From contig JAQSXK010000001.1 of assembly GCA_029256705.1 (NCBI GenBank), positions 186,001 to 250,000 of the forward strand: a stretch of DNA of 64,000 nt, read 5' to 3'. Source of the stretch: Clostridia bacterium (GTDB taxonomy: Bacteria; Bacillota; Clostridia; TANB77; CAG-465). The notes beneath the pieces are model-generated. The model made no database searches and was not told the DNA's origin. It worked only from the letters and a program-made list of their open reading frames with translations. Position 1 is the first letter of the stretch, and each line of letters begins with the position of its first letter. Positions 20,524 to 42,863 of the stretch are shown one piece after another. The position numbers and the translations under genes were made by a program.

Positions 20524-21051
20524 TCACCTTCTTTTTTTTAATAATTTTCTCAAATCTTCAAACTCATATCTAAATAATATACAAAGTGGAACTATTATTA
20601 TAAATATGAAACCAAATATATTTTTCATTAGTCTACTAATTATACTTATAGTAAATATTTTATATACTACAACACCATATACTTGTTCTTGATATACTAT
20701 AGGATCTATAACTGAATTAGCTATTCCTTTTGTATAGTATATATACCTATCATTTTCAGTTATTATTTGTTCAACTTGGTGTGTTATTATCTTATCTTTG
20801 AAGTCTCTTGTCATTCCCAAGTATGATATAACATCTCCAACTTTTATCTTGTTGTAATCTGTCTTTTTAACTATTATTACATCTCCAACCTTTAGTTTTG
20901 GATCCATACTTGCAGTAGATACTGAAAATACTTTTAGTCCAAATAATCCATCCTTTTGCGGAAATATTCTTGTATATAATGCAATTATTATAAAAAAAAC
21001 AATTGCAAAAATTATTATGTACTTTAATATATTTAAAATTTTAGTTTTCAT
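20524..21051 (-). CDS. SipW/ER-type signal peptidase I (second copy, variant Asp region)
   Basis: A 175-residue membrane protein with two helices (about 8-27 and 133-160). The catalytic serine is Ser48 in STASMDP and His91 in ITHQV stands where bacterial Lys would be, marking the ER/SipW type. The conserved KGDxN box reads KGIAN (108-112), losing the first aspartate, but D116 remains. It lies between the 216-residue secreted protein and the giant LRR gene, so it probably cleaves these. Four bp separate it from the LRR gene. Confidence 0.88.
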   Translation of the reverse strand: MKTKILNILKYIIIFAIVFFIIIALYTRIFPQKDGLFGLKVFSVSTASMDPKLKVGDVIIVKKTDYNKIKVGDVISYLGMTRDFKDKIITHQVEQIITENDRYIYYTKGIANSVIDPIVYQEQVYGVVVYKIFTISIISRLMKNIFGFIFIIIVPLCILFRYEFEDLRKLLKKRR

Positions 21052-21072: not shown

Positions 21073-21723
21073 TTATGGATTAATAAACATTATTTTATTA
21101 ATTGACAAATTAGTATCTTGTATTTCATTTGTAGCCTTTTCATCTATATGAATATTGAAATATATAGATATCATATCATTTGCAGGTATATCTAATTTGT
21201 TAATAAAATCAAAATAATAATGTTCATTAACTGCGTCATATTCTACTATATCCGCTAGTTTATATATAAATAATTTTGGACTTGTACATCTTATTTGCAC
21301 TACACTTTTAAGTAAATCTACATCACCATATATTTCAGAAAAAACAATTTTTGTTATAGAAAGTACAGTATCAATATTATTATATATATCGAAACGATAC
21401 TTTTGTGTAGATCCAGGTGCTAATGTTGCAACTTGTATTAAAGGCTGAGATGAAGATTGTGATTGCTCAACATATTCATTATCTTTAAGTACAAACAATT
21501 TAACATCAACATTATTATCTGTTACTATAAGTCGCCCAGTATAATCAATATTTTCTGCTTCTGAAGCGTTTGTTACCATCCACGCAAATACACCCATCAA
21601 AGCTAATATTGTAATACTAAAAGATATATTTAATATTATACTTGTTTTGTTTTTCTTGCTTACTTTTTTTTTATCTATTATTTCATATTTTAGCTCTTTT
21701 TTACTAACTTTTTTTTTAAACAT
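21073..21723 (-). CDS. SipW-dependent-type secreted protein (216 residues)
   Basis: A basic cytoplasmic N-terminus (KKKVSKKELK), a transmembrane helix at about 28-48 ending GVFAWMVTNASEAEN, then a beta-rich ectodomain (LAPGSTQKYRFDIYN, PANDMISIYFNI). The FAWM junction matches the YAWF signature of SipW-processed TasA/camelysin-type proteins. It has no anchor at the C-terminus. It lies 21 bp before a signal peptidase gene. Probable minor fibre or adaptor subunit; function inferred from the family. Confidence 0.75.
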   Translation of the reverse strand: MFKKKVSKKELKYEIIDKKKVSKKNKTSIILNISFSITILALMGVFAWMVTNASEAENIDYTGRLIVTDNNVDVKLFVLKDNEYVEQSQSSSQPLIQVATLAPGSTQKYRFDIYNNIDTVLSITKIVFSEIYGDVDLLKSVVQIRCTSPKLFIYKLADIVEYDAVNEHYYFDFINKLDIPANDMISIYFNIHIDEKATNEIQDTNLSINKIMFINP

Positions 21724-21742: not shown

Positions 21743-22828
21743 CTAAAAAATTACTTGCGTCGCATAAGATTCTGGTGATGTACCTAAAACCTCAGCAATT
21801 CTAACATATACAGTTGTGTAACCTGAAAATGACATATTGGTATTTGTCACTGGTGTCCATACCGTAGTTTTATTATTTGTTAGAGCCCATTCCATATTTG
21901 TTGTTAAATTATTTATAGTGTAATTTGATGTATTTGCTGTAACATTTGGCGCATTTAATAATACATTTGCACTGCCAAATTTTAAATATACATCTAATAA
22001 TGAGCTTGCAATAGTATTAGTACAATCTACATCTCCACCTTCAAGCCAAATTCTCACAGTCATTTTAATTTGAGTATTAGAAGGTATTGTTGTAATTAAT
22101 TTATTTACATCGATAGGATCATCGTCATATATTCCTCTTCCGCCATTTTTATTATCAAATGTCCTTACAATTTGATCACCGAGTAAACTTGGTGAAATAT
22201 TATTATATATAAATTCACCTTCCGAAATAACCGCTTTAGTTGTAAATGGTTTATCTATTCCATTTTCTTCTTGATTTCCAAAAAGCATATTAGAATTTGT
22301 TGTTCCATTATCAAAACTAGTAGATATTCTTATTGCGTTTGCTGCGATTCCTGTAATATGTGAATCTTTATGTATATAAACATGTTTTGCATATTCCTCT
22401 GTTTGCAGATAAAAATCATAGTCTATATATCCATACTCTATCATATTTTCTCTAGCTAGTAATGTATCTATTTTAACAAATTTAGGTTTTTGAATTGCTA
22501 AACCTTGTCCAAAATCAATTCTATAAAAATTGATATTGTCCGCAGAAGAAACTTGTTTTAATACAAAATCATCAAAGTTATCGAATAACTGATTAAGACT
22601 TAATGTTGTTCTACTCGGACTATCTGGTGAAAGTTTTATTGTAAGTCCATCTGCAACCGTTACTTTAATTTGACTTCCAATTATTTGTGGATTAGCCTTA
22701 TCTGAAAACCAAGAATATGTAGAAAATACAAATAAGCTGATTATTCCAAACAATATAATGATTTGAATAAATATTTTTTTGTTTAAATTAAATTTCATAT
22801 ATATATTTCTACTTTTGTTTTTTTCCAT
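21743..22828 (-). CDS. SipW-dependent-type secreted protein (361 residues)
   Basis: A transmembrane segment (about 17-38) ending FSTYSWFSDKANPQ, the SipW-type junction, followed by an ectodomain with DGLTIKLSP, a Gly/Asp-rich middle and IWLEGGDVDCTN, a segment also present in three sister proteins of this cluster. That shared IW.EG.D motif near the C-terminus suggests a common beta-sandwich fold. Start ATG 22828 has an AGAAGGG site. Probable fibre subunit. Confidence 0.78.
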   Translation of the reverse strand: MEKNKSRNIYMKFNLNKKIFIQIIILFGIISLFVFSTYSWFSDKANPQIIGSQIKVTVADGLTIKLSPDSPSRTTLSLNQLFDNFDDFVLKQVSSADNINFYRIDFGQGLAIQKPKFVKIDTLLARENMIEYGYIDYDFYLQTEEYAKHVYIHKDSHITGIAANAIRISTSFDNGTTNSNMLFGNQEENGIDKPFTTKAVISEGEFIYNNISPSLLGDQIVRTFDNKNGGRGIYDDDPIDVNKLITTIPSNTQIKMTVRIWLEGGDVDCTNTIASSLLDVYLKFGSANVLLNAPNVTANTSNYTINNLTTNMEWALTNNKTTVWTPVTNTNMSFSGYTTVYVRIAEVLGTSPESYATQVIF

Positions 22829-22849: not shown

Positions 22850-23821
22850 TTATTTAGATAAACCTAAAAAACTTATATTTATCTTAAATTGGCCACCTTT
22901 TAAAGAATAAATGGCTTCTCTATCATTTCCTTCAACCCATATTCTTATTGTAATTGCCCTTATATTTTCATTACTATTTTGACTATTGTTTTCAATATTA
23001 GTTAATGGAGTATCACCGCCACTTGTATGTGTTTCATACGAAGCATCTATATCTTCAATAACGTTTGATAAATCTTCTAAATAATAACTATCATAATCTA
23101 AAACTTTTGTATATTTATATTGTTGTTGATCTGTAGAATCTAAATATCCAATACATTTATTATTTTCATATTTTACTTGATAACCTTTATTTGGTGCCCA
23201 AACAAATTTTGGTGTATTTTGTTCTACAAAAGTCCCATTTACTAAATCATTTTCTATAAATGCAATTCTAACTGCTCCAGCTATTAGATCTCTAGAAAAA
23301 TTTCCATCAGTACTTTCTCTTATAACCTCACTTGAATTAATCAAATTAATTATATTTTTGCCTGCTGCAGGGTAAACTTCAGATTTTTTTTCTAAGTAAA
23401 CAGTTGATTCAGTTGCAGATTTAAACAAAACTTTATATTCTAGATAATCTTCATTTTTTACGGCAGGAATAAAATTAAGTGGTGTACCATCTTCACCTTT
23501 TGCATTTGGTTTATAAAAAGTAATACCATCACTAGTAGACTCTTTATATAAAATAAAATTATCTACTATATTTAATTCCGCTATTTTAGACCAAGTAAGT
23601 CCATTGTCTAAGGAGATTTCCATAGTATTGACTGGTGCTGTTGTAGCACTTAAGTCACTAACTCCCACATTTTTGTTATTTATAAACCATGCATATGTTG
23701 TTATAAGTAATAAACATATAACTATAAATAATTTTATTGATGAAGATAGTAATTTTTCCTTTAATATTTGTTTTCTTGGTATTAATGATTTGCATTCTAC
23801 ATTTTCTACAATTTTATGCAC
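22850..23821 (-). CDS. SipW-dependent-type secreted protein (323 residues)
   Basis: Starts at GTG 23821 (GGAGGTGG site). A transmembrane helix at about 28-47 ends ITTYAWFINNKN, the canonical SipW junction. The ectodomain contains MEISLDNGLTW, an asparagine-rich region and ITIRIWVEGNDREA, the cluster's shared IW.EG.D motif. It follows the DUF2357-like gene by 18 bp, linking the AAA+ pair to the secreted proteins in one transcript. Probable fibre subunit. Confidence 0.8.
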   Translation of the reverse strand: MHKIVENVECKSLIPRKQILKEKLLSSSIKLFIVICLLLITTYAWFINNKNVGVSDLSATTAPVNTMEISLDNGLTWSKIAELNIVDNFILYKESTSDGITFYKPNAKGEDGTPLNFIPAVKNEDYLEYKVLFKSATESTVYLEKKSEVYPAAGKNIINLINSSEVIRESTDGNFSRDLIAGAVRIAFIENDLVNGTFVEQNTPKFVWAPNKGYQVKYENNKCIGYLDSTDQQQYKYTKVLDYDSYYLEDLSNVIEDIDASYETHTSGGDTPLTNIENNSQNSNENIRAITIRIWVEGNDREAIYSLKGGQFKINISFLGLSK

Positions 23822-23839: not shown

Positions 23840-24961
23840 TTACTTACGTATTGTTTGAATTGCCTTTTTAATATTATTATCATGTCTTTTAATACATCTA
23901 CAAATTTCATTATATATTGTTCTTTGCATTTTAATTTTCTTTTGTTTATATTGATCAAAAAATTCAGAAAGCATTTTTTTAAATTCTTTAGCATCAATAT
24001 CCTTATTTTCTTTTATAAAATCTTGAATTGCTTTATTCAAATAATACTCATTTGATTTTTCTTCTGAATCAGAATCTTTATTGTCTGGTGATAAACTACT
24101 TAGTATATTATAATTAATAAAAGATGTTAATAAATATTTAAGCTGAATTTCTTTGTCCGAATCAATAATTAAATTTTCTTTAACCTCTTTTCTATCTTTA
24201 TAATCATATCTTTCAATAAACTCCCATAATTCTAAAGCCTTTTTAAAGTTAGTATTTTTTAATATAGTATTAGTTTTTCTAATTGGTGACCTTACTGGAA
24301 GAGTTCCTATTAAAGACTTCATAAGCGGACTTTTAATAAAATCTTGAACTATCAATTCAATTCTCTCAATTCTAGTATCCATATCTAATTCTTGTCCATC
24401 TAAATTTATTAAATCCTCATATGAATTAGACTCTAAGTTAAGACTTATGTTTATTAATTCTGTATTAATTTTTGTATGTGCGTTAAATTCTAATTTTTTC
24501 TTACTTTTTGAAAATGATCCTTCTTTAACAGCATCTTTTCTTTGCCTTACAAACATATATAAATTATTAAGCAAAGAATATATGAATCTATTTTCATAAA
24601 GATCAAAAGTTTCTTCTTTATGTATGTTTAAGACCGCACTTGGTGTTATAGTTCCATCTGCGGTCACGTCTTGTATTAAGTTAGTATGCTGCGCCAAGTG
24701 TCTTATTGTCTCCATTGATATTTTTTTTGCTTTTTCAATAGGAACAATTTCTTCTTCTTGAGCTAAAAACTTTTTTGGAACTCTTACTATTGCATCTAAA
24801 TATTGTATTGTTTCTTCAATTTTATCTACCCAAGTATAATCAAATTGAATACTATGTATATCCGATTCAATTTTATACTTAGAATTATTTTTTGAAATAA
24901 ACTCTTGTAACTTATTCTCATCAAGGTTACTTACTAAATTCATAATTTCATTAGTTTCCAC
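23840..24961 (-). CDS. DUF2357-like partner of the AAA+ ATPase (nuclease domain not seen)
   Basis: A 373-residue soluble protein with GTG start 24961. The N-terminal third (YTWVDKIEETIQYLDAIVRVPK) and the following ENRFIYSLLNNLYMFVRQRK resemble DUF2357 proteins, which pair with McrB-like ATPases in McrBC-type systems. Those normally end in a PD-(D/E)XK nuclease; here the C-terminal third is a Lys/Glu-rich helical region with no such motif that I can find. It lies 12 bp after the AAA+ gene, so the two are probably co-translated partners. The family call is moderate and needs a profile search. Confidence 0.55.
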   Translation of the reverse strand: METNEIMNLVSNLDENKLQEFISKNNSKYKIESDIHSIQFDYTWVDKIEETIQYLDAIVRVPKKFLAQEEEIVPIEKAKKISMETIRHLAQHTNLIQDVTADGTITPSAVLNIHKEETFDLYENRFIYSLLNNLYMFVRQRKDAVKEGSFSKSKKKLEFNAHTKINTELINISLNLESNSYEDLINLDGQELDMDTRIERIELIVQDFIKSPLMKSLIGTLPVRSPIRKTNTILKNTNFKKALELWEFIERYDYKDRKEVKENLIIDSDKEIQLKYLLTSFINYNILSSLSPDNKDSDSEEKSNEYYLNKAIQDFIKENKDIDAKEFKKMLSEFFDQYKQKKIKMQRTIYNEICRCIKRHDNNIKKAIQTIRK

Positions 24962-24973
24962 ATTAATACCCCA

Positions 24974-26527
24974 TTACATCATTTTCTTTAGTCTTAATAA
25001 ATAAGATTTACATTCATTCATGTTTTCCTTACCATAAGTTTTACTTAAGAAATCTATGAATCCATCAATTTCATCTCTTATAAAAGATAAATTCAATTGT
25101 TCAAATTTTCTTAAAATTTTATGTGCTATAACATAGTCTATACCGTCTATTTCAGAACCGCCACATGCCATATATGCAGGTACAAATTCTCTTAATTGTT
25201 TAACAATACGATTACCAAAAGCCATACGAAAATGTTCGATAACATAGTCATCCATTTTTGTTAAATTCTCCATATTAACTTCAGATACATGATATTTTGT
25301 ATTTGCTTGTGCAAATAAGCTTTCTAAATACTTACTACTTAATCTTATTCCATCTGTAGGTGGCGCATCAAATTTTTCACCTTTATCATTTATATCTATT
25401 GGCATTGCTCTATCATAAACTTTATCTGTTACCATAAAAGTAGAATCATCATTGTTTATTGTACCTATGTACCACATATTATCTGGCAATTTTAGTTTAC
25501 CATCTGGAAGTCTAACAGGATCTGTAGGCCAAACACTTGGAACTAAATCAATAATCCATTCATCCCTACTAGGCATTTCTAGAATAGATAACATTTCTGC
25601 AAAATAATACTCAACACGAGCTATATTCATTTCATCAAGTATTACTATGTATACTTGATCTACATATGAAGCCTCATACATTTTTTTTAATACTTCTGTT
25701 TCATTAAATTTCTTAGTAAATTCATTAAAAAAACCAAATAATTCAGTTCTATCACGCCAAGATGGTTGGACAGAAGCAATTACTGCATCATTATTTATAA
25801 ATTTTCCCCATGCATAAGGAAGAGATGTTTTACCAGTTCCAGATATACCTTGTAATATAATAAGTCTATTTGAAGCAAATGAAGCTAGAAATAATCTTAT
25901 TATATCTATTTTATAATATAACTTCAATTTATTAGCTGCAAAATTTCTAAATCTTTCACATATATCTATCAAAGATAGATCATTGTTTGTTGGCTCTGGT
26001 ACATAATTTTTCATTTCTTCATCTATTTGTATAAGTTTAAAGAAACGATTATCATTTGCATGTTCTAAGTTATCCTCATCTTCCTTTTTTACTGGATTAC
26101 CATTTTCATCAAGTTCTACATTTTCTGCTAAATCTTCACCTGGTTTTAATCCAAGTTGGGATACTTTCATCGCAAATAACTTCTCTTTTTCAAGTGTTAA
26201 TTTAACAACATCATTATTTAATTTTCCTAATTCATCTAATAAAGCTTCTTGCTCTACTAGAGATTTTCTTATTCTTATATACTTTTTAAAAAATAATACA
26301 AATAGTAATATTATTGAGCCTACGAGTACAATAACTAGTATAATTGAAATTACAACAAATACCCATTGACCACCCTTAATATCATCTGAATACATTTTAA
26401 TGATATTGTAATAGTCCCCCACATTTAATATTTGTTTTAATCCATTGAAAATTCCTTTAAATATTTGAGCTAAGCCATCAAAGAATTGTGACATAAAATC
26501 AAATAAAAATTTAATGTATACATCCAT
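24974..26527 (-). CDS. Membrane-anchored McrB/MoxR-like AAA+ ATPase
   Basis: A 517-residue protein; ATG 26527 has the AAGGAG site at proper spacing, whereas a GTG 9 nt upstream touches that site. An amphipathic start (1-35) precedes a transmembrane helix (54-80) and a coiled linker (85-175). The AAA+ core has Walker A GISGTGKT (227-234), Walker B ILDEMN (296-301), sensor-1 GTINND (355-360) and the arginine element VYDRA. The DEMN and GTINNDDST motifs are typical of McrB/AAA_5 ATPases. The membrane anchor is unusual for McrB relatives. Encoded between a signal peptidase and its DUF2357-like partner, it may drive assembly or remodelling of secreted fibres. Confidence 0.82.
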   Translation of the reverse strand: MDVYIKFLFDFMSQFFDGLAQIFKGIFNGLKQILNVGDYYNIIKMYSDDIKGGQWVFVVISIILVIVLVGSIILLFVLFFKKYIRIRKSLVEQEALLDELGKLNNDVVKLTLEKEKLFAMKVSQLGLKPGEDLAENVELDENGNPVKKEDEDNLEHANDNRFFKLIQIDEEMKNYVPEPTNNDLSLIDICERFRNFAANKLKLYYKIDIIRLFLASFASNRLIILQGISGTGKTSLPYAWGKFINNDAVIASVQPSWRDRTELFGFFNEFTKKFNETEVLKKMYEASYVDQVYIVILDEMNIARVEYYFAEMLSILEMPSRDEWIIDLVPSVWPTDPVRLPDGKLKLPDNMWYIGTINNDDSTFMVTDKVYDRAMPIDINDKGEKFDAPPTDGIRLSSKYLESLFAQANTKYHVSEVNMENLTKMDDYVIEHFRMAFGNRIVKQLREFVPAYMACGGSEIDGIDYVIAHKILRKFEQLNLSFIRDEIDGFIDFLSKTYGKENMNECKSYLLRLKKMM

Positions 26528-26558
26528 ATATTGCACTCCTTAAATTGTATTACTTTTC

Positions 26559-26593: not shown

Positions 26594-27154
26594 TTATTTT
26601 GCTGTAATAACTCCATCTTGTTTTATCCTTACCAAAATTAAAACAAATTTAACTAATTGGTATATGAATATTATAAATAATGGTAATACTATACAAACAA
26701 AAAAACCAACTTTTGATTTGAAGAAATCTAATAAGTACCCACCTTTAGAAATCTTAATACCAGAATATTTAGAAACAACATCCCCCGGTGCTACTTCCTT
26801 TTCATCTTGTAATTGATTATTATCACCCTTTGTTATAAAAGACATTACTCCTTTATCATTTTTTACTTCTTTGATTCTGTGAGTTATTATTACTACTTTT
26901 TCTTTTTCAACTGAGAAAAATGAAATTACATCTCCCTCTTTTAGAGACTTAGTATCGAATTTCTCACTAATAATCAAGTCACCAGTATATATTGCTGGTT
27001 CCATTGAAGCAGTTTGTATGCTAAGTGGAATATAACCTAAAAAATTTGATACTCCTTTTTCTTTAGTATTAAGAGATATTATTGTAACAGCCGCAGCTAT
27101 TAAAATAAAAATCCATATTAAAACATTTAAGATAATTTTAAATTGTTTTTTCAT
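26594..27154 (-). CDS. SipW/ER-type signal peptidase I
   Basis: A 186-residue membrane protein with helices near 8-27 and 158-175. Catalytic Ser50 (QTASMEP), His92 (IITHRI) and the intact KGDNN box (109-113) plus D117 define an ER/SipW-type serine-histidine signal peptidase. It directly follows the 338-residue putative major fibre subunit (44-bp gap), the same order logic as sipW beside tasA in Bacillus. It probably releases the cluster's YAWF-type substrates. Confidence 0.9.
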   Translation of the reverse strand: MKKQFKIILNVLIWIFILIAAAVTIISLNTKEKGVSNFLGYIPLSIQTASMEPAIYTGDLIISEKFDTKSLKEGDVISFFSVEKEKVVIITHRIKEVKNDKGVMSFITKGDNNQLQDEKEVAPGDVVSKYSGIKISKGGYLLDFFKSKVGFFVCIVLPLFIIFIYQLVKFVLILVRIKQDGVITAK

Positions 27155-27198: not shown

Positions 27199-28215
27199 TT
27201 ATGTATTGTTTTTAGATATTTGAATATTAAATGTTATATCTGAACCAGAAGCATTATTTTCACAATCAACATCTTGTCCTTCAATCCAAGCATATACTCT
27301 AACTTTTGTAATACCTGCAGTTATTGCTAAAAGTTGTGTAAATGTAGTTGGTGATGCTGATCTTTGGAATGATGGACTTGTTGAAGGAGATACTAATTTA
27401 AAGAATTCTGCATCTGTAGCATTTAATCTTATATCATCACTAGCAATTATTGGTGCATTTACACCATAATAGTTAGGTAATGCTGGACCTGTAACTGTTG
27501 TTGTAATTCCATATACATCATTTGCTGCAGCTACTCCAGCAGGAGTATGAACATTTGCATTAGGCTCCCAAAATATTGCAGCTGTAGCACCTTTTAAAGC
27601 TTGTGCTGCTGCTGCAGTAGAACCAACTGGAACACTTCCCTCTTTTAGAAAAGCAACTCTAGCAGAATTTTTTAATCCTAAATCTATATTTTTAAACAAA
27701 ACATCAGCTCCAGGTGTTAAATATAAAGTTTCTGCATCAGCAGATTGAATAAATAAATCAAAAGCTATAAAATCACCTGCAGTTCCTGCTGATCCTGAAG
27801 CATCCGCTGCCTCAGTTGTTTTTTCAGATAATAAAATGTTATAACCTTGTGCAACGTTTGAAGATACTGATCCTTTATACATATTTAAAAATCCTGCAGC
27901 AGTATCTATTGTACCACCACTAGAAACCGGCACTAACGCAGCCGGAACCTGATTTTTGTGATTTGTATATGCTTCTCCTTTTATATCTTCAGTTGTTAAA
28001 CTTGCTTTCCAGTTTGTTCCATCCATAGATATTTGTATACCATTAGAAGCAGAAACGTTTACATCTAGTGAACCAAGTGTAACTGTCGCATTAGCTGTAA
28101 ACCATGCATAAGTTGCAGTTGTTAAAGATATTGCAGTAACTAATAATGTTAATAACGCTATTACTACTGTACGTCTTGTTACTATTTCATCCTTTTGTAC
28201 TTTTGTTTTTTCCAT
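27199..28215 (-). CDS. Putative major SipW-dependent fibre subunit (TasA/camelysin-like)
   Basis: A 338-residue protein with a transmembrane segment at about 17-38 ending TTATYAWFTANATVTLGSL, the best SipW junction of the window. The ectodomain is rich in Ala, Thr, Ser and Asn with few Lys, carries NGIQISMDG near the N-terminus and VYAWIEGQDVDCENN near the C-terminus. Its composition and position immediately before signal peptidase gene 26594-27154 suggest the abundant structural subunit. An AAGGAAATG-type site precedes ATG 28215. No anchor is visible. Confidence 0.82.
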   Translation of the reverse strand: MEKTKVQKDEIVTRRTVVIALLTLLVTAISLTTATYAWFTANATVTLGSLDVNVSASNGIQISMDGTNWKASLTTEDIKGEAYTNHKNQVPAALVPVSSGGTIDTAAGFLNMYKGSVSSNVAQGYNILLSEKTTEAADASGSAGTAGDFIAFDLFIQSADAETLYLTPGADVLFKNIDLGLKNSARVAFLKEGSVPVGSTAAAAQALKGATAAIFWEPNANVHTPAGVAAANDVYGITTTVTGPALPNYYGVNAPIIASDDIRLNATDAEFFKLVSPSTSPSFQRSASPTTFTQLLAITAGITKVRVYAWIEGQDVDCENNASGSDITFNIQISKNNT

Positions 28216-29059: not shown

Positions 29060-30181
29060 TTAATGTTTAAGTAGATAACTTTCCTTTATATGCTCTTTTA
29101 TATCTACTGTATCATCTAAAACAATTAAGTCATTATTTTGACAAAAATCAATCAAATCACTACTATTATCTTTTAAATTGTTATTCAAAAATATATAATC
29201 AACTGTATCTTTAAACAAATAAGTATTATGATTAAGCTTATTCATATCATATATAGCAATTTTAAAACCAGATTTTTTCAAGTTTTCGACAATATCATTA
29301 TTTTTTATAAAAGATCTATAATCTATATTTAAGCAAACTCTCATCTTAATTTTAGGATTATTAAATTTTTCTACTAACTCCTCTAAAAATTCTGAATTTG
29401 TAATAAAATTTTCTGGTAACTTAATAATAAAATTTGATCTTTTCTTTTCAATTAATAACAATTTTAATATATATACTGAAAGCAATTCTGCAGTAATTAT
29501 CGTAAAATCCAAATTCAGCTTTTTTACTTTAATTTGCTCTTCAATATCACTAATCAAATATTTCTTTAAAACTTTAATATCATATACAAGTATCGTATCA
29601 TAAAAATCTGGTTTAATTTGTATAAAGTTTAAGTGAAACTTGTCCCCATCTATAATTTTAAAGAAATTTTTATCATCAAGAACATTTTCTTTAATTTTTT
29701 CATTTAGTTCATCTTCTACATATTTTACTTTATCTAAAAATTCTTTTTCAAAAATATCCATATTTTCTTCTAATACATTAGTTAGTATATTTGAATATCT
29801 GATTTTAGGATTTGCAAGTACATTAACCTTTTTATTAATTTCTAGAGAAAGTAAAATAATTTTTGATATTAAAATTATATATTCGTTATTATCATATATA
29901 TCACTTACTACTTTATCATTATCTATAAAATTTATTGTATAATTAATAATTCTTCTAAGTTTTAAATCAATAATATTATTTTCATGTATAAATTTATTTA
30001 CCTTATAAGTAACTTGTATTTTATTCTTTAAATCATCATCCATGAATTCTTCTATAATATCTTGAAATAACTTTACATTCATATATTTCTTATCCAAGGC
30101 ATTCTTCATTAGTATTTTAGTGTACTCAGTAACATTGTCTTTTTTTCTCTGATAGTAAATATCAACAATATTAGCATCCAT
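29060..30181 (-). CDS. Degenerate EAL-like protein at the head of the surface-fibre cluster
   Basis: A 373-residue cytoplasmic protein, mostly helical in the first half. The C-terminal 150 residues resemble an EAL fold in order: FIIKLPENFI, MRVCLNIDYRSF, LKKSGFKIAIYDMNK, DYIFLNNNL and LIDFCQNNDLIVLDD. Active-site residues look lost (no EAL motif; YD instead of the DD pair). Such degenerate EAL proteins often bind c-di-GMP or partners without hydrolysing it. It is the first gene after the promoter, so it may regulate fibre assembly. Alternative: an unrelated TIM-barrel-like protein. Confidence 0.5.
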   Translation of the reverse strand: MDANIVDIYYQRKKDNVTEYTKILMKNALDKKYMNVKLFQDIIEEFMDDDLKNKIQVTYKVNKFIHENNIIDLKLRRIINYTINFIDNDKVVSDIYDNNEYIILISKIILLSLEINKKVNVLANPKIRYSNILTNVLEENMDIFEKEFLDKVKYVEDELNEKIKENVLDDKNFFKIIDGDKFHLNFIQIKPDFYDTILVYDIKVLKKYLISDIEEQIKVKKLNLDFTIITAELLSVYILKLLLIEKKRSNFIIKLPENFITNSEFLEELVEKFNNPKIKMRVCLNIDYRSFIKNNDIVENLKKSGFKIAIYDMNKLNHNTYLFKDTVDYIFLNNNLKDNSSDLIDFCQNNDLIVLDDTVDIKEHIKESYLLKH

Positions 30182-30303: not shown

Positions 30304-30486
30304 GAGATTTTATCCTAAATATAACAATTTATGTTATTTATTGACAATATTTGTATAAATATTCCTAATATAAGGCGTTTTTGTAATATTAATGTAACAT
30401 TTCTGACGTATACTAGCTCATTATGTCATTTATTTGCAGTGTTTTAACCAATTCTATGACTTATAATTAATAAAGTATAAAAAAAT

Positions 30487-30517
30487 AACGAGTTTTCATC
30501 ACTTTCAAAAACCCGCT
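30487..30517 (-). terminator. Terminator of the 31.3-30.6 kb membrane-protein gene
   Basis: A 10-bp stem with G-U wobbles (30487-30496 / 30508-30517) followed on the minus strand by ATTTTTTTATA. It separates that gene from the cluster promoter. Confidence 0.7.
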
Positions 30518-30640
30518 ATCTGCAATATATTTTTAAATACTTTTATTTGTTTTCCATTAAATATAACATCTCGAACTACTATAAAAACTTAATTTGACGT
30601 ATCTCACATTTCAGTGACAATATTTTTATTTAATTCAATT

Positions 30641-31285
30641 TTATTTATTCTGTATAAAACTTATAAGTGACTCTATAAACAAAAATACAATAAACAGAGA
30701 AACTAATGAACCTACAGTTATAATTACAATATTACTTATTTTAACTAGTACAGCTTCATTTAATAACTCTTGTCCTTCAACTATACAATTACCTTGCTTT
30801 ACTAGCAAGTCAAGTAGTAATTTTATTTTTTTATTACTAAATTGACCTATGAAAAAAGTTTGGCAATTATTATCTTTTGTTCTAATTACTAAATATTTCT
30901 CTTTTGAAAATTTTGTATTTCTAATACTAGTATTTAAATAAGCATTTTCAGATAAATTAAAATCATTTTCAATCAATTTTACGGAATATATATCACTATA
31001 TTTAATTATCACCTTTTGAATACAAATACAATTCTCATATAAAGTAATTTTTTTATTTGCAAGGGTGAAAACTTTAATCAAAATTAACATTATTACAATT
31101 AGTGTTATAAACCCCTCCGGAAATTCTTTCGTATTACCAGCAAAAAAATCGAATAATGCTGCTATTGAAGCTACCCCTAATAATATTATTATTATTAATG
31201 TCAAAATCATTACTATAATTGCACCAGTAACTCGTATATCTACTATTTTTTTGCCTCTATCTGATAATAATACATTATTATCCAA
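30641..31285 (-). CDS. Membrane protein with central soluble domain, unknown family
   Basis: A 214-residue protein. TTG 31285 is placed correctly behind the GGGGG site, while TTG 31300 overlaps it. Two N-terminal helices (about 22-45, 55-75) precede a beta-rich domain (KKITLYENCICIQKVIIKYSDIYSVKL, a PH-like pattern) and a C-terminal helix pair. I recognise no named family; it resembles PH-domain membrane proteins of Firmicutes. It is monocistronic with its own terminator. Confidence 0.6.
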   Translation of the reverse strand: MDNNVLLSDRGKKIVDIRVTGAIIVMILTLIIIILLGVASIAALFDFFAGNTKEFPEGFITLIVIMLILIKVFTLANKKITLYENCICIQKVIIKYSDIYSVKLIENDFNLSENAYLNTSIRNTKFSKEKYLVIRTKDNNCQTFFIGQFSNKKIKLLLDLLVKQGNCIVEGQELLNEAVLVKISNIVIITVGSLVSLFIVFLFIESLISFIQNK

Positions 31286-31413
31286 ATTTAGTACCCCCAA
31301 TCATAAATATAATTATATATTATAATTTGTTAATAATCAACTAAATATTAACTATATTATAAAATTACTTTAAAATATATATCTTCAAACTTTAAGCGTA
31401 TTCAAACATAGAA

Positions 31414-39158: not shown

Positions 39159-42100
39159 TTATTGATTCATGATTTGAATTACTTCAGCATCATTTAATGG
39201 CCTATTATATATTCTTAGTTCATCGATTGCTGATCCATTCCATCTATAATTAATAGAATCCGTATTTTCCCATCCACTTATATTTATACTCGAAATAAAT
39301 TGTGCATTTCCAGGTCCTTGAAAATCTTGCATTTGACTTAAAACTTGTTTTACTCCATTTATATATATGGTATTTAAATTATAATCACCTTTATTAAAGA
39401 TCAATACAACATGAGAGAATGTTCCAATAGTAAACGGATTATTTATTCCATAAATATCATTACAAGCCGTGTTAAATCCAAACATTTGTGAATTTATCCA
39501 AGAATCATAAGCATAAAAACCTATTGGCATAATACCCTGCTCTCCATTCCATTTATACCAAAATGCAACAGAAACAGTATTAGTATTTGTATTTATTGCT
39601 AAATCAGATAAAGGTATTCTCACCTGTCCATAGTTATCTATTCTAAGTCCATTTCCTGTTCTTCCTGTCACATATGATGTACCAGTTCCTATATATGTTT
39701 TATTAGTAACTTCATTTATTATGCTACCACTAAATGAGAATTTTCCAACCAACCCTTGAGTAACTATTTCTACCGTATTTGATGTAGTTACATTTCCTAC
39801 ATTATCAGAAACTTTTACTTTACACTGATATATTCCTATAGATAATCCTGTAAATGTATATGATGTCGAACTAGTAGCTGCTGTCCATGTTACACCATTA
39901 TCTTTTGAATATTGATATGAACTAGAATTTAATCCACTTCCCCCAGTATCTGTTGCTGTAGCATTTACTGTTATACTAGTTTCGTTTGAACCTCCATTTG
40001 TTGCTGTTATATTAGGAACTATTCTATCTATATAACTTACATTAACAGAAGAATTTGTTACGTTTCCTGCTTGATCTTTTAACCAAACATAATATGTTCC
40101 ATTTGCTGTTATATTGTCAAATACTGTAGCAAACCTTGTATTTGCTGTAATACTTGTGAATGTAGGAGCTGTAGAATTACTTTGATTTATACCATATCCA
40201 ATTACCCCTGATGCTTCTGTTGCGCTTGCCATTACTATATTTGAAGTACCCCATTTTGTTGTATCAAATACATTTGCATACGCAACATGCCAAACTGCAG
40301 GCGATGCTGGAGTAGGTGTTGATCCTCCAGTTATATAATAGAAGTTAGTAGTGCTAAATGAACCACTTGAACCACATGTTACTTTTCCTATATATTCTGT
40401 CCAATTTCCTGTTCCTTCTTGTGAAGTAAGCCACACAAAATTTCCATCTGTTCCTATTGCATTAGTAGACCAGTTTATGCTATATCCAACTGGTATTTTT
40501 GCTATTATCTTTGAAATGAACACTTTGTTTGCAGATGATGGTGTTCCAAAATAGAAACCTCCCCATCCTGGCCATGGTGTTCCAGATGTAGTTTTAATTT
40601 CTAGCCCATAGCCTGATCCAGTTGGAGAACTAGGTATTGCAATTCTATTTACGGTTACTGTACCATCTCCAGTGTTATTATATACCACTGTACTGTTTAT
40701 TCCACTTGCAAAAGTTGGATCATTATATATACCAGTTCCAGCTAATGCATTAGCAATAGCAGGTACAGCTTTATCTATATTTGCTACCGTCATTGTACTC
40801 TGTCCGCTTTGGTTTCCACTTGCATCTGTTGCTCTTGCATATACTGTTGTATTATTTGTAGTCACTATTACTCCTGATGTATATGTACTCCAAATTGTTC
40901 CATCTGTGCTATATTCTTTAATCACAGCATCTACTGGATACGTTATTGTTACTGTTACATTTTCATTTGTCCATCCTGTAGGACTTGCTGACATTGTTGG
41001 ATTTATTGGTGGTGTAACATCTGTTCCAAATGCATTAGATTTTGTTATATATGTATTTCCCGCATTGTCTAACGCTTTTACCCATAAGTAATATGTTCCT
41101 GTAACTCCTGTTTTAGTTATTGCACTACCATTAGTAAATGTTACCCATCCTGATGAAGGTGTTGTGGTATTTTGTGTGTCCCAAATATATTGTACTGAAG
41201 CTATATTACTTCCACCCAAATCACTTGCTGTTACTGTCGTACTTGCTGTTTGCAAATTTGCTCCTCCATTTGTGCCATATACTACTGTTGGCATAGTTTT
41301 ATCTATATTTGCTACAGTTAATGTACTTTGACTACTTTGGTTTCCACTTGCGTCTGTTCCTCTTGCGTATACTGTTGTATTATTTGTAGTTATTATTACA
41401 CCTGTTGTATATGTATTCCATGTAGTTCCATCTGTACTATATTCCTTAATCGTAGTATCTACTGAATAAGCTATTGTTACTGTTACATCTCCATTTGTCC
41501 ATCCTGTAGGATTTGCTGACATTGTTGGATTTGTTGGAGCAGTATTATCTATCGTAAATGAATTAGATTTAGTTACTACACTATTACCTGTATTATCTAT
41601 TGCTTTTATCCATAAATAATATACTCCATTTGAATTTAATTTACTTATTGCTTCACCATTTACAAATGAAGTCCACTCACCTGTTGGTTCATTTACATTC
41701 TGTGCGTCCCAAATGTATCTTAATGAAGATAAGTCTATTCCACTTACCCCTATATCGTTTACTGTTACTGTGGTACTTGCTTCTTGCAAATTTTCTCCTC
41801 CATTTGTTCCATATGTAACTGTAGGCGATTCTCTATCTATATTAGCTATAGTTATTGTACTTTGGCTGCTTTCATTTCCTGCTACATCAGTTGCCCTTGC
41901 ATATATAGTTTCATTGTTATTACTAACCGTTATTGAATCTGTATAAACATTCCATGTTGATCCGTCTGTGCTATATTCTTTTGTAACACTATCTGATGGA
42001 TATGTTATTGATATTGTAACATTTAAATTAGTCCAACCTGTCGGAGTAACTGACATTTCTGGATTCATTGGTGGAGTGTTATCTATTTCAAACAACTCGC

Positions 42101-42863
42101 TGCTAATTATATCCACTGAATTGGTTACATCATATATATTAGATATGCAATTTGCTTTAAGCCTTAATTTATATATACCTTCTGCAAGTGTAGCTGTTTT
42201 TATTTTTATCTCCACAGTTCGTAATGTATCTAACTCAGTACCAGTCGGTTCAGCAATTTCAAATACTGGTTGAACTGGAACTAATACATTGTTTTTATCT
42301 AATAGTTCTAATTTACTAGTTAAGTTTATATTGTTTATACTAGCATTAGATGAAATTTTTATTGTAGTCACAACATCTGTTCCGGCAGATATTGGCAAAG
42401 TTGCCGTTGTAGAAATTATTGCATCTAATCTATCTGCATCTACAACATCCACATTAACTTCTTGCGCCCATCTTTTCTTTGTTCTATCTGTTCCAAGATA
42501 GACTAATTTTCCATTTACTACTTCAAATTGTCCATTATATTTACTTGTCGTAGATAAAGCTGGTATTATATCTTTTATTGTTTTGCCTGCAATAACTGTT
42601 CCATTATAATCTGTAGTTAAATCATTTGCATTCAACTGATCTGGATTAAATGCCCTTACAGCTGTATATTGACTTGCTAAATACAGACTTAAATCTGATT
42701 CAATAGCATCCAAATCTGATTTAAATACTGCTTCATTTGCACTATTAATTGGATTATTTCCAGAAAGTGATAAAATAACTCCCCCTGCAAGTATAATTAT
42801 TACTATAATTGTTATTATTAGTACAATTAAAGATATACCTTTTTTCTTATATTTATAATTCAC
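39159..42863 (-). CDS. Pilin-like N-terminus fused to Ig-like repeats and LamG-like C-terminus
   Basis: A 1234-residue protein, start GTG 42863 behind GAGGTG. The N-terminus KKGISLIVLIITIIVIIIL matches a type IV prepilin/pseudopilin segment, cleaved after the glycine, but the position-5 glutamate of classic pilins is replaced by valine. Then come Ig-like modules in a two-and-a-half-copy repeat of about 176 residues (40768-42090) and a C-terminal LamG/concanavalin-like domain (about 1060-1230, SGSIINEVTNK, FWYKWNGEQG, DELRIYNRPLND). It is probably a secreted or pilus-displayed adhesin. It follows two related small membrane proteins (42.9-44.0 kb). Carbohydrate or host binding is inference. Confidence 0.82.
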   Translation of the reverse strand: MNYKYKKKGISLIVLIITIIVIIILAGGVILSLSGNNPINSANEAVFKSDLDAIESDLSLYLASQYTAVRAFNPDQLNANDLTTDYNGTVIAGKTIKDIIPALSTTSKYNGQFEVVNGKLVYLGTDRTKKRWAQEVNVDVVDADRLDAIISTTATLPISAGTDVVTTIKISSNASINNINLTSKLELLDKNNVLVPVQPVFEIAEPTGTELDTLRTVEIKIKTATLAEGIYKLRLKANCISNIYDVTNSVDIISSELFEIDNTPPMNPEMSVTPTGWTNLNVTISITYPSDSVTKEYSTDGSTWNVYTDSITVSNNNETIYARATDVAGNESSQSTITIANIDRESPTVTYGTNGGENLQEASTTVTVNDIGVSGIDLSSLRYIWDAQNVNEPTGEWTSFVNGEAISKLNSNGVYYLWIKAIDNTGNSVVTKSNSFTIDNTAPTNPTMSANPTGWTNGDVTVTIAYSVDTTIKEYSTDGTTWNTYTTGVIITTNNTTVYARGTDASGNQSSQSTLTVANIDKTMPTVVYGTNGGANLQTASTTVTASDLGGSNIASVQYIWDTQNTTTPSSGWVTFTNGSAITKTGVTGTYYLWVKALDNAGNTYITKSNAFGTDVTPPINPTMSASPTGWTNENVTVTITYPVDAVIKEYSTDGTIWSTYTSGVIVTTNNTTVYARATDASGNQSGQSTMTVANIDKAVPAIANALAGTGIYNDPTFASGINSTVVYNNTGDGTVTVNRIAIPSSPTGSGYGLEIKTTSGTPWPGWGGFYFGTPSSANKVFISKIIAKIPVGYSINWSTNAIGTDGNFVWLTSQEGTGNWTEYIGKVTCGSSGSFSTTNFYYITGGSTPTPASPAVWHVAYANVFDTTKWGTSNIVMASATEASGVIGYGINQSNSTAPTFTSITANTRFATVFDNITANGTYYVWLKDQAGNVTNSSVNVSYIDRIVPNITATNGGSNETSITVNATATDTGGSGLNSSSYQYSKDNGVTWTAATSSTSYTFTGLSIGIYQCKVKVSDNVGNVTTSNTVEIVTQGLVGKFSFSGSIINEVTNKTYIGTGTSYVTGRTGNGLRIDNYGQVRIPLSDLAINTNTNTVSVAFWYKWNGEQGIMPIGFYAYDSWINSQMFGFNTACNDIYGINNPFTIGTFSHVVLIFNKGDYNLNTIYINGVKQVLSQMQDFQGPGNAQFISSINISGWENTDSINYRWNGSAIDELRIYNRPLNDAEVIQIMNQ
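40768..42090 (-). repeat. 528-bp tandem Ig-like repeats in the pilin-fronted gene
   Basis: Two full copies of a 176-residue unit (landmarks PTVxYGTNGG and GWTN...YARxTDxxGNxS) plus a half-copy on the N-terminal side. The second and third halves are highly similar in DNA. Boundaries are approximate. Confidence 0.8.

Follow-up and report, generated by a model that had tools for sequence, protein, structure and literature searches.

A predicted degenerate EAL protein heads a putative CoCoPALM operon in a Clostridia bacterium

FimX and LapD are catalytically dead EAL proteins that bind c-di-GMP, act as its receptors and carry a GGDEF domain. They tie a dead EAL domain to the control of surface structures, and they are among the best structural matches of the models of the protein family analysed here, which we call DEAL. 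However, DEAL has lost the motif residues, most relatives have a shortened barrel, and the N-terminal domain is helical. YkuI-type and other Bacillota EAL proteins share the EAL barrel (2w27 is among the matches listed for the model of a DEAL relative) but are far apart from DEAL in sequence, and we know of no YkuI-type protein that is part of an operon such as the one described below.

CoCoPALM is a clade named in a short passage on gene context in an eLife article of 2024 (PMC11090510). The features given there are an NxD-type McrB-like AAA/GTPase fused at its N-terminus to an FtsB-like membrane segment and coiled coil, a DUF2357 partner, and neighbours of the signal peptidase family. The NxD motif of McrB-like AAA proteins is defined in the same article, according to which no NxD McrB has been characterised; the link of CoCoPALM to pilus assembly is a claim of its authors. 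The sipW-tasA, sipW-bsaA and calY operons of Bacillus and Clostridium perfringens combine a SipW-type peptidase with secreted fibre subunits, but the passages of PMC7395162 cited here mention neither an AAA/DUF2357 pair nor an EAL gene. The operon that we describe fits CoCoPALM as far as its sequence can tell: it encodes an AAA protein with an NxD motif, a DUF2357 partner, and two SipW-type peptidases. It differs in its EAL-derived head, since the main text of PMC11090510 has no occurrence of EAL, c-di-GMP or TasA. A literature search, article supplements apart, turned up no such operon described with an EAL gene; a further CoCoPALM publication is announced in PMC11090510.

The window is the whole stretch of 64,000 nucleotides that we analysed, from the 1.39 Mb genome of a Clostridia bacterium. 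Its DEAL gene is real, and is the first gene of a minus-strand operon (Table 1). An earlier sequence-only reading of the window had given the gene the same coordinates and the same leading place, the latter borne out by an upstream terminator-like site and a close-set next gene. The plus strand across the gene is full of stops. The DEAL stop codon lies 17 bases ahead of a TTG with a GGAGG site, which is likely the start of P1. Terminator-like sites number five in this region, against 1.5 expected in shuffles. Upstream, beyond the hairpin, are a 219 aa reading frame, five tRNAs and RNase P RNA.

Table 1. Coordinates of the DEAL gene, its operon and the upstream hairpin in the window
Feature	Position	Strand	Characteristics
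Terminator-like hairpin	30483..30521	minus	Upstream of the head gene; sets it apart from the gene at 30641-31300
DEAL (head gene)	29060..30181	minus (30181->29060)	ATG start, 373 aa; predicted helical N-terminal domain (1-177) and degenerate EAL barrel (about 180-366)
P1	28287..29042	minus	Likely TTG start (GGAGG site); predicted to have one membrane segment, near 46-64 (longer reading); putative TasA-like outer part with ...IWLEGDDPECKDDILGG
P2, putative TasA/SipW-type secreted protein	27199..28215	minus	Signal ending TATYAWFT
SipW-type signal peptidase	26594..27154	minus	TIGR02228 above cut-off; NF046067 SipW E 3e-32, below cut-off
Membrane-anchored McrB-like AAA protein	24974..26536	minus	Hydrophobic segment near 65-83; Walker A GISGTGKTS, ILDEMN, NxD motif GTINNDD
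DUF2357 protein (McrC N-terminal type)	23840..24961	minus	373 aa; PF09823 E 1.1e-12
P3, putative TasA/SipW-type secreted protein	22850..23821	minus	TTYAWFI
P4, putative TasA/SipW-type secreted protein	21743..22828	minus	STYSWFS
P5, small secreted protein	21073..21723	minus	GVFAWMV signal; same neighbour in sister genome
Second SipW-type signal peptidase	20524..21051	minus	SipW-type match

The genes lie in the order in which Table 1 lists them. The sister genome G002 has the same operon, and locus L220 (JAQUGQ010000009.1), identical in gene order, probably represents the same record as G002. P1 is the conserved second gene in EAL-headed relatives. In the AAA protein, N361, N362, D363 and D364 are invariant among 16 aligned AAA proteins, and Pfam FtsL gives a weak match (E 0.12) at 63-120, over the strong hydrophobic segment. 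Signal motifs (TYAWF and the like) and the SipW context suggest that P1-P4 are TasA-like and that the operon's products may make fibres. SipW-dependent BsaA fibres of C. perfringens are in line with the TasA-like reading (PMC7395162).

What is the head protein? Its single sequence does not settle EAL identity, because the match to Pfam EAL (PF00563) is weak: 14.3 bits (E 0.027; residues 247-332 on EAL 83-174) against a curated cut-off of 31.3, so that the protein falls outside PF00563 by that cut-off. In the family as a whole, six of 42 members reach an E value of 1 or less, the best being 2.6e-4. Structure prediction is more telling. A template-free AlphaFold2 model of the window protein, built from a 42-row alignment, has a pLDDT of 75.6 and a pTM of 0.73. 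All 50 Foldseek entries listed for it are EAL proteins (best E 8.8e-6), as are all 50 shown by VIA, which aligns 190 residues with PaMorA (4rni; Z 17.4, rmsd 3.0). A second template-free model, of a relative (37 sequences, without the window pair), has a pLDDT of 92.0 and a pTM of 0.89, and VIA matches it to LapD (3pjt) over 164 residues with a Z of 13.7. The relative's model does not reach the end of the EAL barrel, the final portion of which most relatives lack. The EAL part fills the listings of these fold searches, which hardly cover the N-terminal domain.

Profile comparisons point the same way. With hhalign, the window protein and three relatives (from G002, L218 and L225) match a profile of the EAL heads described below over 190 columns (E 1.1e-11, probability 97.4) and the EAL proteins of the window's order at E 2.8e-5 (probability 74); six neighbour proteins from the same operons, used as decoys, gave E 0.39-0.95. 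The whole DEAL family (45 sequences) matches the EAL heads at E 2.3e-5, and is not significant against the order EALs alone (E 0.086, probability 0.7%; decoys 0.08-0.97), nor was the family C-terminus in an earlier comparison with the same EALs (E 0.06 and 0.26). Significance thus came with the window-like members and the EAL heads, and the case for EAL descent rests on these members, the intermediate heads and the models, because the full family against the order EALs is not significant. Together, the profile comparison and the two template-free models settle the predicted fold of the C-terminal half (residues about 180-366) as an EAL TIM barrel. The sequence-only reading had described a degenerate EAL-like fold with its C-terminal landmarks in order, and Foldseek, VIA and hhalign uphold it. 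It had named a TIM-barrel match with conserved ligand contacts as support, and a fold unrelated to EAL as grounds for dropping the idea; the barrel match was obtained and the fold is that of EAL, but conserved ligand contacts were not found.

Other searches of the head protein were negative. A phmmer search of the PDB gave no match, and the A2 profile, built from the 42-row family alignment, found one chance match only among PDB sequences (E 0.53). PADLOC and PHROGs had nothing for the head protein, and a scan of genome contigs with the single protein gave none of 23 candidate stretches. The DEAL N-terminus is a helical domain of no recognised family. A decayed HD-GYP domain as the origin of these helices is not supported: against ten HD-type head N-termini, hhalign gave E 0.054 and 0.16 with probabilities of at most 1%, and decoys gave 0.20-0.90.

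The residues that hold the metal and c-di-GMP in EAL domains are those of the EAL motifs, and in the window protein they are mostly replaced. The metal DD pair is Y311 D312 (IAIYDMN), the YD seen in the sequence-only reading. In the hhalign alignment the N of NxS corresponds to K254, the E of ExT to N285, the K of KID to F331 and the E of AEGVE to D357, while the QG part is missing. The strand due to carry the EAL motif, near 193-200 (YDTILVYD), has no glutamate. The earlier proposal that the motif had been replaced around MRVCLNID was misplaced, since that segment (280-287) aligns with the ExTE strand. Among the aligned catalytic and ligand positions the window protein therefore keeps D312 and an acid at D357, far from the set of an active EAL phosphodiesterase (E of EAL, N, E of ExT, DD, K, E, Q). 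In the A2 alignment the strongly conserved residues are others, with N4, F182 and G305 invariant, and there is no conserved acidic cluster at the EAL motif positions. Because motif residues are replaced or missing, the sequence excludes catalysis and leaves nearly none of the classical ligand contacts, in agreement with the earlier description of a catalytically dead EAL protein.

The DEAL family occurs in 44 of 385 genomes of the window's order and in 10 of 48 genera, mostly of another family. The usual layout there is peptidase, S1, peptidase, S2, S3, DEAL, AAA, DUF2357, peptidase, S4, S5, P1, P2. DEAL stands directly before the AAA gene in 21 of the 28 order loci laid out, one of them with a broken DEAL; of the remaining seven, the window and G002 have three genes separating the two, four are truncated by contig ends, and L054 has a DUF2357 match next. 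Internal stops are absent from 46 of 47 clear DEAL matches. The A2 set comprises 42 of these 47 and leaves out G305:C1, G306:C12, L029 (longer unclear start), the broken G193 and the contig-cut G118. Outside the A2 set, L218, L224 and L225 were scored as DEAL by our own profile. A search of the class with the A2 profile found 4 of 391 genomes, all of the window's order and none outside it. DEAL proteins are 64% identical within the genus and 15-21% identical to the rest of the family, as compared with 52-61% for the AAA protein.

Individual order loci depart from this picture in various ways. In L054 (898-2908, G329) the DUF2357 match follows the head gene with no AAA match between. The head gene of L071 (8490-9408, G193) is in pieces, with 13 internal stop codons, and the adjoining operon genes are readable. 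G040 has two different operon copies (L018 and L020). In the window's own family, L024 (4976-8627, G031) has a 642 aa AAA protein, resembling the same AAA kind (E 3e-27), beside a 579 aa protein.

The AAA protein was used as the anchor in searching for related operons elsewhere because it is far better conserved than the head. It matches at E <= 1e-30 in 26 of 391 genomes of the class, from which 16 loci were taken. In six (L145, L146, L148, L149, L150 and L152) our own profile places an EAL protein directly before P1, and Pfam agrees (E 1.4e-53 to 2.9e-11). L151 has an HD plus EAL protein directly before P1 (Pfam EAL 4.7e-12), and L153 (12041-14935, G507) has a PilZ protein (1.6e-10) in the head slot, with an HD-domain protein further upstream. 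The head slot of L144 holds a P2-like gene; contig ends truncate L147 and L159; and in L154-L158 our own profiles find AAA and DUF2357 and no P1. L154-L157 carry a triplet of AAA, DUF2357 and AAA with no P1 or peptidase match, and may represent a different system with this kind of AAA protein.

With the AAA alignment, a scan of the GTDB collection confirmed at least 558 stretches. The best 80 were kept, so these loci favour relatives of the query and include some near-copies; as titled, they are mostly Clostridia from gut and rumen samples, and some are Bacilli or Tenericutes. After dropping 12 loci without a P1 match and nine that lacked a reading frame of 120 aa in the 500 bases upstream, we scored 59. 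In 30 of the 59 an EAL gene lies directly upstream of P1 (29 by our own profile, and L229 by Pfam, E 1.1e-12). The other 29 head slots hold DEAL (three loci, including L224 with the order-type layout), a P2-like gene (21), a signal peptidase (one) or something else (four). In three of these last four (L199, L201 and L202) a gene of 228-272 aa lies next upstream of that position, and that of L199, the one examined, matches EAL at 6e-5. In several cases the EAL head runs a few bases past the P1 start, as in coupled genes. Hence, an EAL-derived head is a recurring part of CoCoPALM, and the dead EAL head noticed in the window extends to the same slot of related Bacillota operons, which holds EAL-type genes that are nearly all degenerate.

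Thirty-six distinct heads were compared, 30 from the 80 loci and six from class genomes. Of the 36, 35 keep 0-4 of the eight catalytic residues, and the head of L152 keeps 8 of 8; single residues may be misplaced by hmmalign in very divergent heads. Eight of 8 are also kept by 30 control EALs of the order, the top 30 by score and so biased to intact ones, and by four EALs close to the loci. That all 36 heads match Pfam EAL is nearly built in, because they were picked with our own EAL profile; the fair figure is the 30 of 59. L150, L151 and L174 are examples of heads with an N-terminal HD-GYP-type domain. Ten of the 36 also match HD_5, and in six (L171, L174, L175, L177, L188 and L192) an HDIGK/HDVGK motif is still legible.

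In a tree of 97 AAA proteins, built quickly, rooted at the midpoint and with some long branches, all 15 DEAL-headed rows fall together (support 100), beside EAL-headed groups. EAL-headed rows fill most other deep branches, one of which also holds the PilZ-headed row. The P2-like type forms a separate group of 29, including seven rows of unreadable head and one that is peptidase-headed. The simplest reading is that the ancestor had an EAL-type head, which decayed into DEAL along one branch and disappeared along another. The P2-like loci are a Ruminococcus-like branch (L187, L189, L190, L205, L208 and 16 more) with the order P2, P1, P2, peptidase, AAA, DUF2357, and no EAL match is listed in the stretch covered. 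The EAL head is thus not indispensable, since this branch has the AAA/SipW/P1/P2 set without it, and these 21 loci provide a natural control.

Does the fibre machine answer to c-di-GMP? The genome of the window has two EAL matches and five GGDEF matches, three of the latter with an intact GGDEF motif, and so does not lack c-di-GMP enzymes, a lack that the sequence-only reading would have taken as evidence against its proposal. Its two recognisable EAL proteins (L109 and L110) retain five of eight catalytic residues each, one with an HD-like N-terminus and one with a GGDEF domain. Across the order there is no association between DEAL and EAL genes, the latter being found in 16 of 44 genomes with DEAL and 131 of 341 without, counts in which absences are soft because the genomes are drafts. 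GGDEF matches are present in all 44 genomes with DEAL, which may leave room for a nucleotide role; five GGDEF-match proteins from four genomes without an EAL match are of two types, with GGDDF in the one and no such motif in the other. Neither the window region nor any of 13 loci gave a c-di-GMP riboswitch at the gathering score. The degenerate EAL heads of related operons suggest that c-di-GMP governs the fibre machine, or did so in the past. For the window protein, binding is doubtful, because the residues that would contact the ligand have gone and the family occurs independently of EAL genes. The response of fibre production to c-di-GMP that the earlier reading suggested is plausible for the system as a class, judging from the sequences, and doubtful for this protein.

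We propose that the head is a pseudo-EAL regulator of an AAA-driven fibre machine, once responsive to c-di-GMP and, in the window's lineage, probably independent of the nucleotide (probability about 0.58). The computed results on which we build are the EAL fold, the dead site, the place at the operon head, the kinship with EAL heads, and the conserved gene order. The head, an EAL barrel without catalysis joined to a helical domain, would be a regulatory or docking subunit of the CoCoPALM machine, presumably in the cytoplasm. TasA-like subunits, once processed by SipW, would be handled at the membrane by an anchored McrB-like AAA ring with the DUF2357 protein as its activator, leading to their release or their assembly into surface fibres. 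The head may tune this motor through contact with the AAA/DUF2357 pair or with the cytoplasmic tail of P1; we infer such contact from gene order, as the head precedes P1 in the window and stands directly before AAA in most relatives of the order. The ancestral head would have been of EAL type and presumably c-di-GMP-responsive.

An alternative is that the head is still a receptor for c-di-GMP or a related nucleotide, like FimX or LapD, and that binding to the dead barrel switches fibre production on or off. The EAL fold, the precedent of degenerate EAL receptors, the GGDEF proteins with intact motifs in the genome, and the EAL, HD plus EAL, or PilZ (beside an HD-domain protein) found in the same slot of other lineages would all suit such a receptor. 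We nonetheless consider it unlikely for the window protein, given the loss of all but two of the alignable motif positions, the conservation of other residues across the A2 alignment, the independence of DEAL from EAL genes, and the riboswitch result. It is less likely again that the head is a passenger gene or decaying leftover with no part in fibre making. Its very fast divergence relative to the AAA protein and the broken copy in G193 could be read in this way, but nearly all clear matches are free of internal stops, the gene keeps a constant position by AAA or P1, and three residues are invariant in 42 rows.

Two further explanations concern the kind of system or enzyme involved. The McrB/McrC-like pair might be a restriction-type defence module, in which the head EAL would sense an infection nucleotide and the secreted proteins would form the surface part. 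The AAA protein does match the PADLOC candidate PDC-M26A (E 3.5e-39) and, weakly, McrB, and the CoCoNuT relatives are predicted defence systems (PMC11090510). However, Pfam shows no nuclease domain in the DUF2357 protein, the AAA protein is membrane-anchored, and SipW/TasA-like partners recur across Bacillota, so that we regard a defence role as improbable. Least probable of all is a barrel that acts as an enzyme on another substrate, for instance one like the TIM barrel of glycerophosphodiester phosphodiesterases: the NCBIfam GDPD model matches at 281-331 with E 0.0045, but its score is 16.4 against a cut-off of 264, the structure matches are to EAL, and the family alignment has no acidic cluster conserved at the EAL motif positions.

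There is also a broader and more tentative proposal, for which we would not claim even odds. A c-di-GMP-type input protein, usually a dead EAL, otherwise HD plus EAL and once PilZ by an HD-domain protein, may be central to many CoCoPALM systems. SipW-dependent surface fibres in Bacillota of the gut and rumen would then be built by a McrBC-type membrane motor that a second messenger gates, and the window would be an extreme form, in which a dead EAL has turned into a structural subunit. An EAL-derived head in many CoCoPALM operons joins three fields, namely c-di-GMP signalling, McrBC motors and TasA-like fibres. It also offers a case in which an EAL domain has been worn from 8 of 8 catalytic residues to almost none within one kind of operon slot.

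Elsewhere in the window, the minus strand at 39159-42863 encodes a 1234 aa protein whose repeated units are preceded by an N-terminus (KKKGISLIVLIITIIVIIILAGGVILSL) like that of a type IV pilin or pseudopilin.
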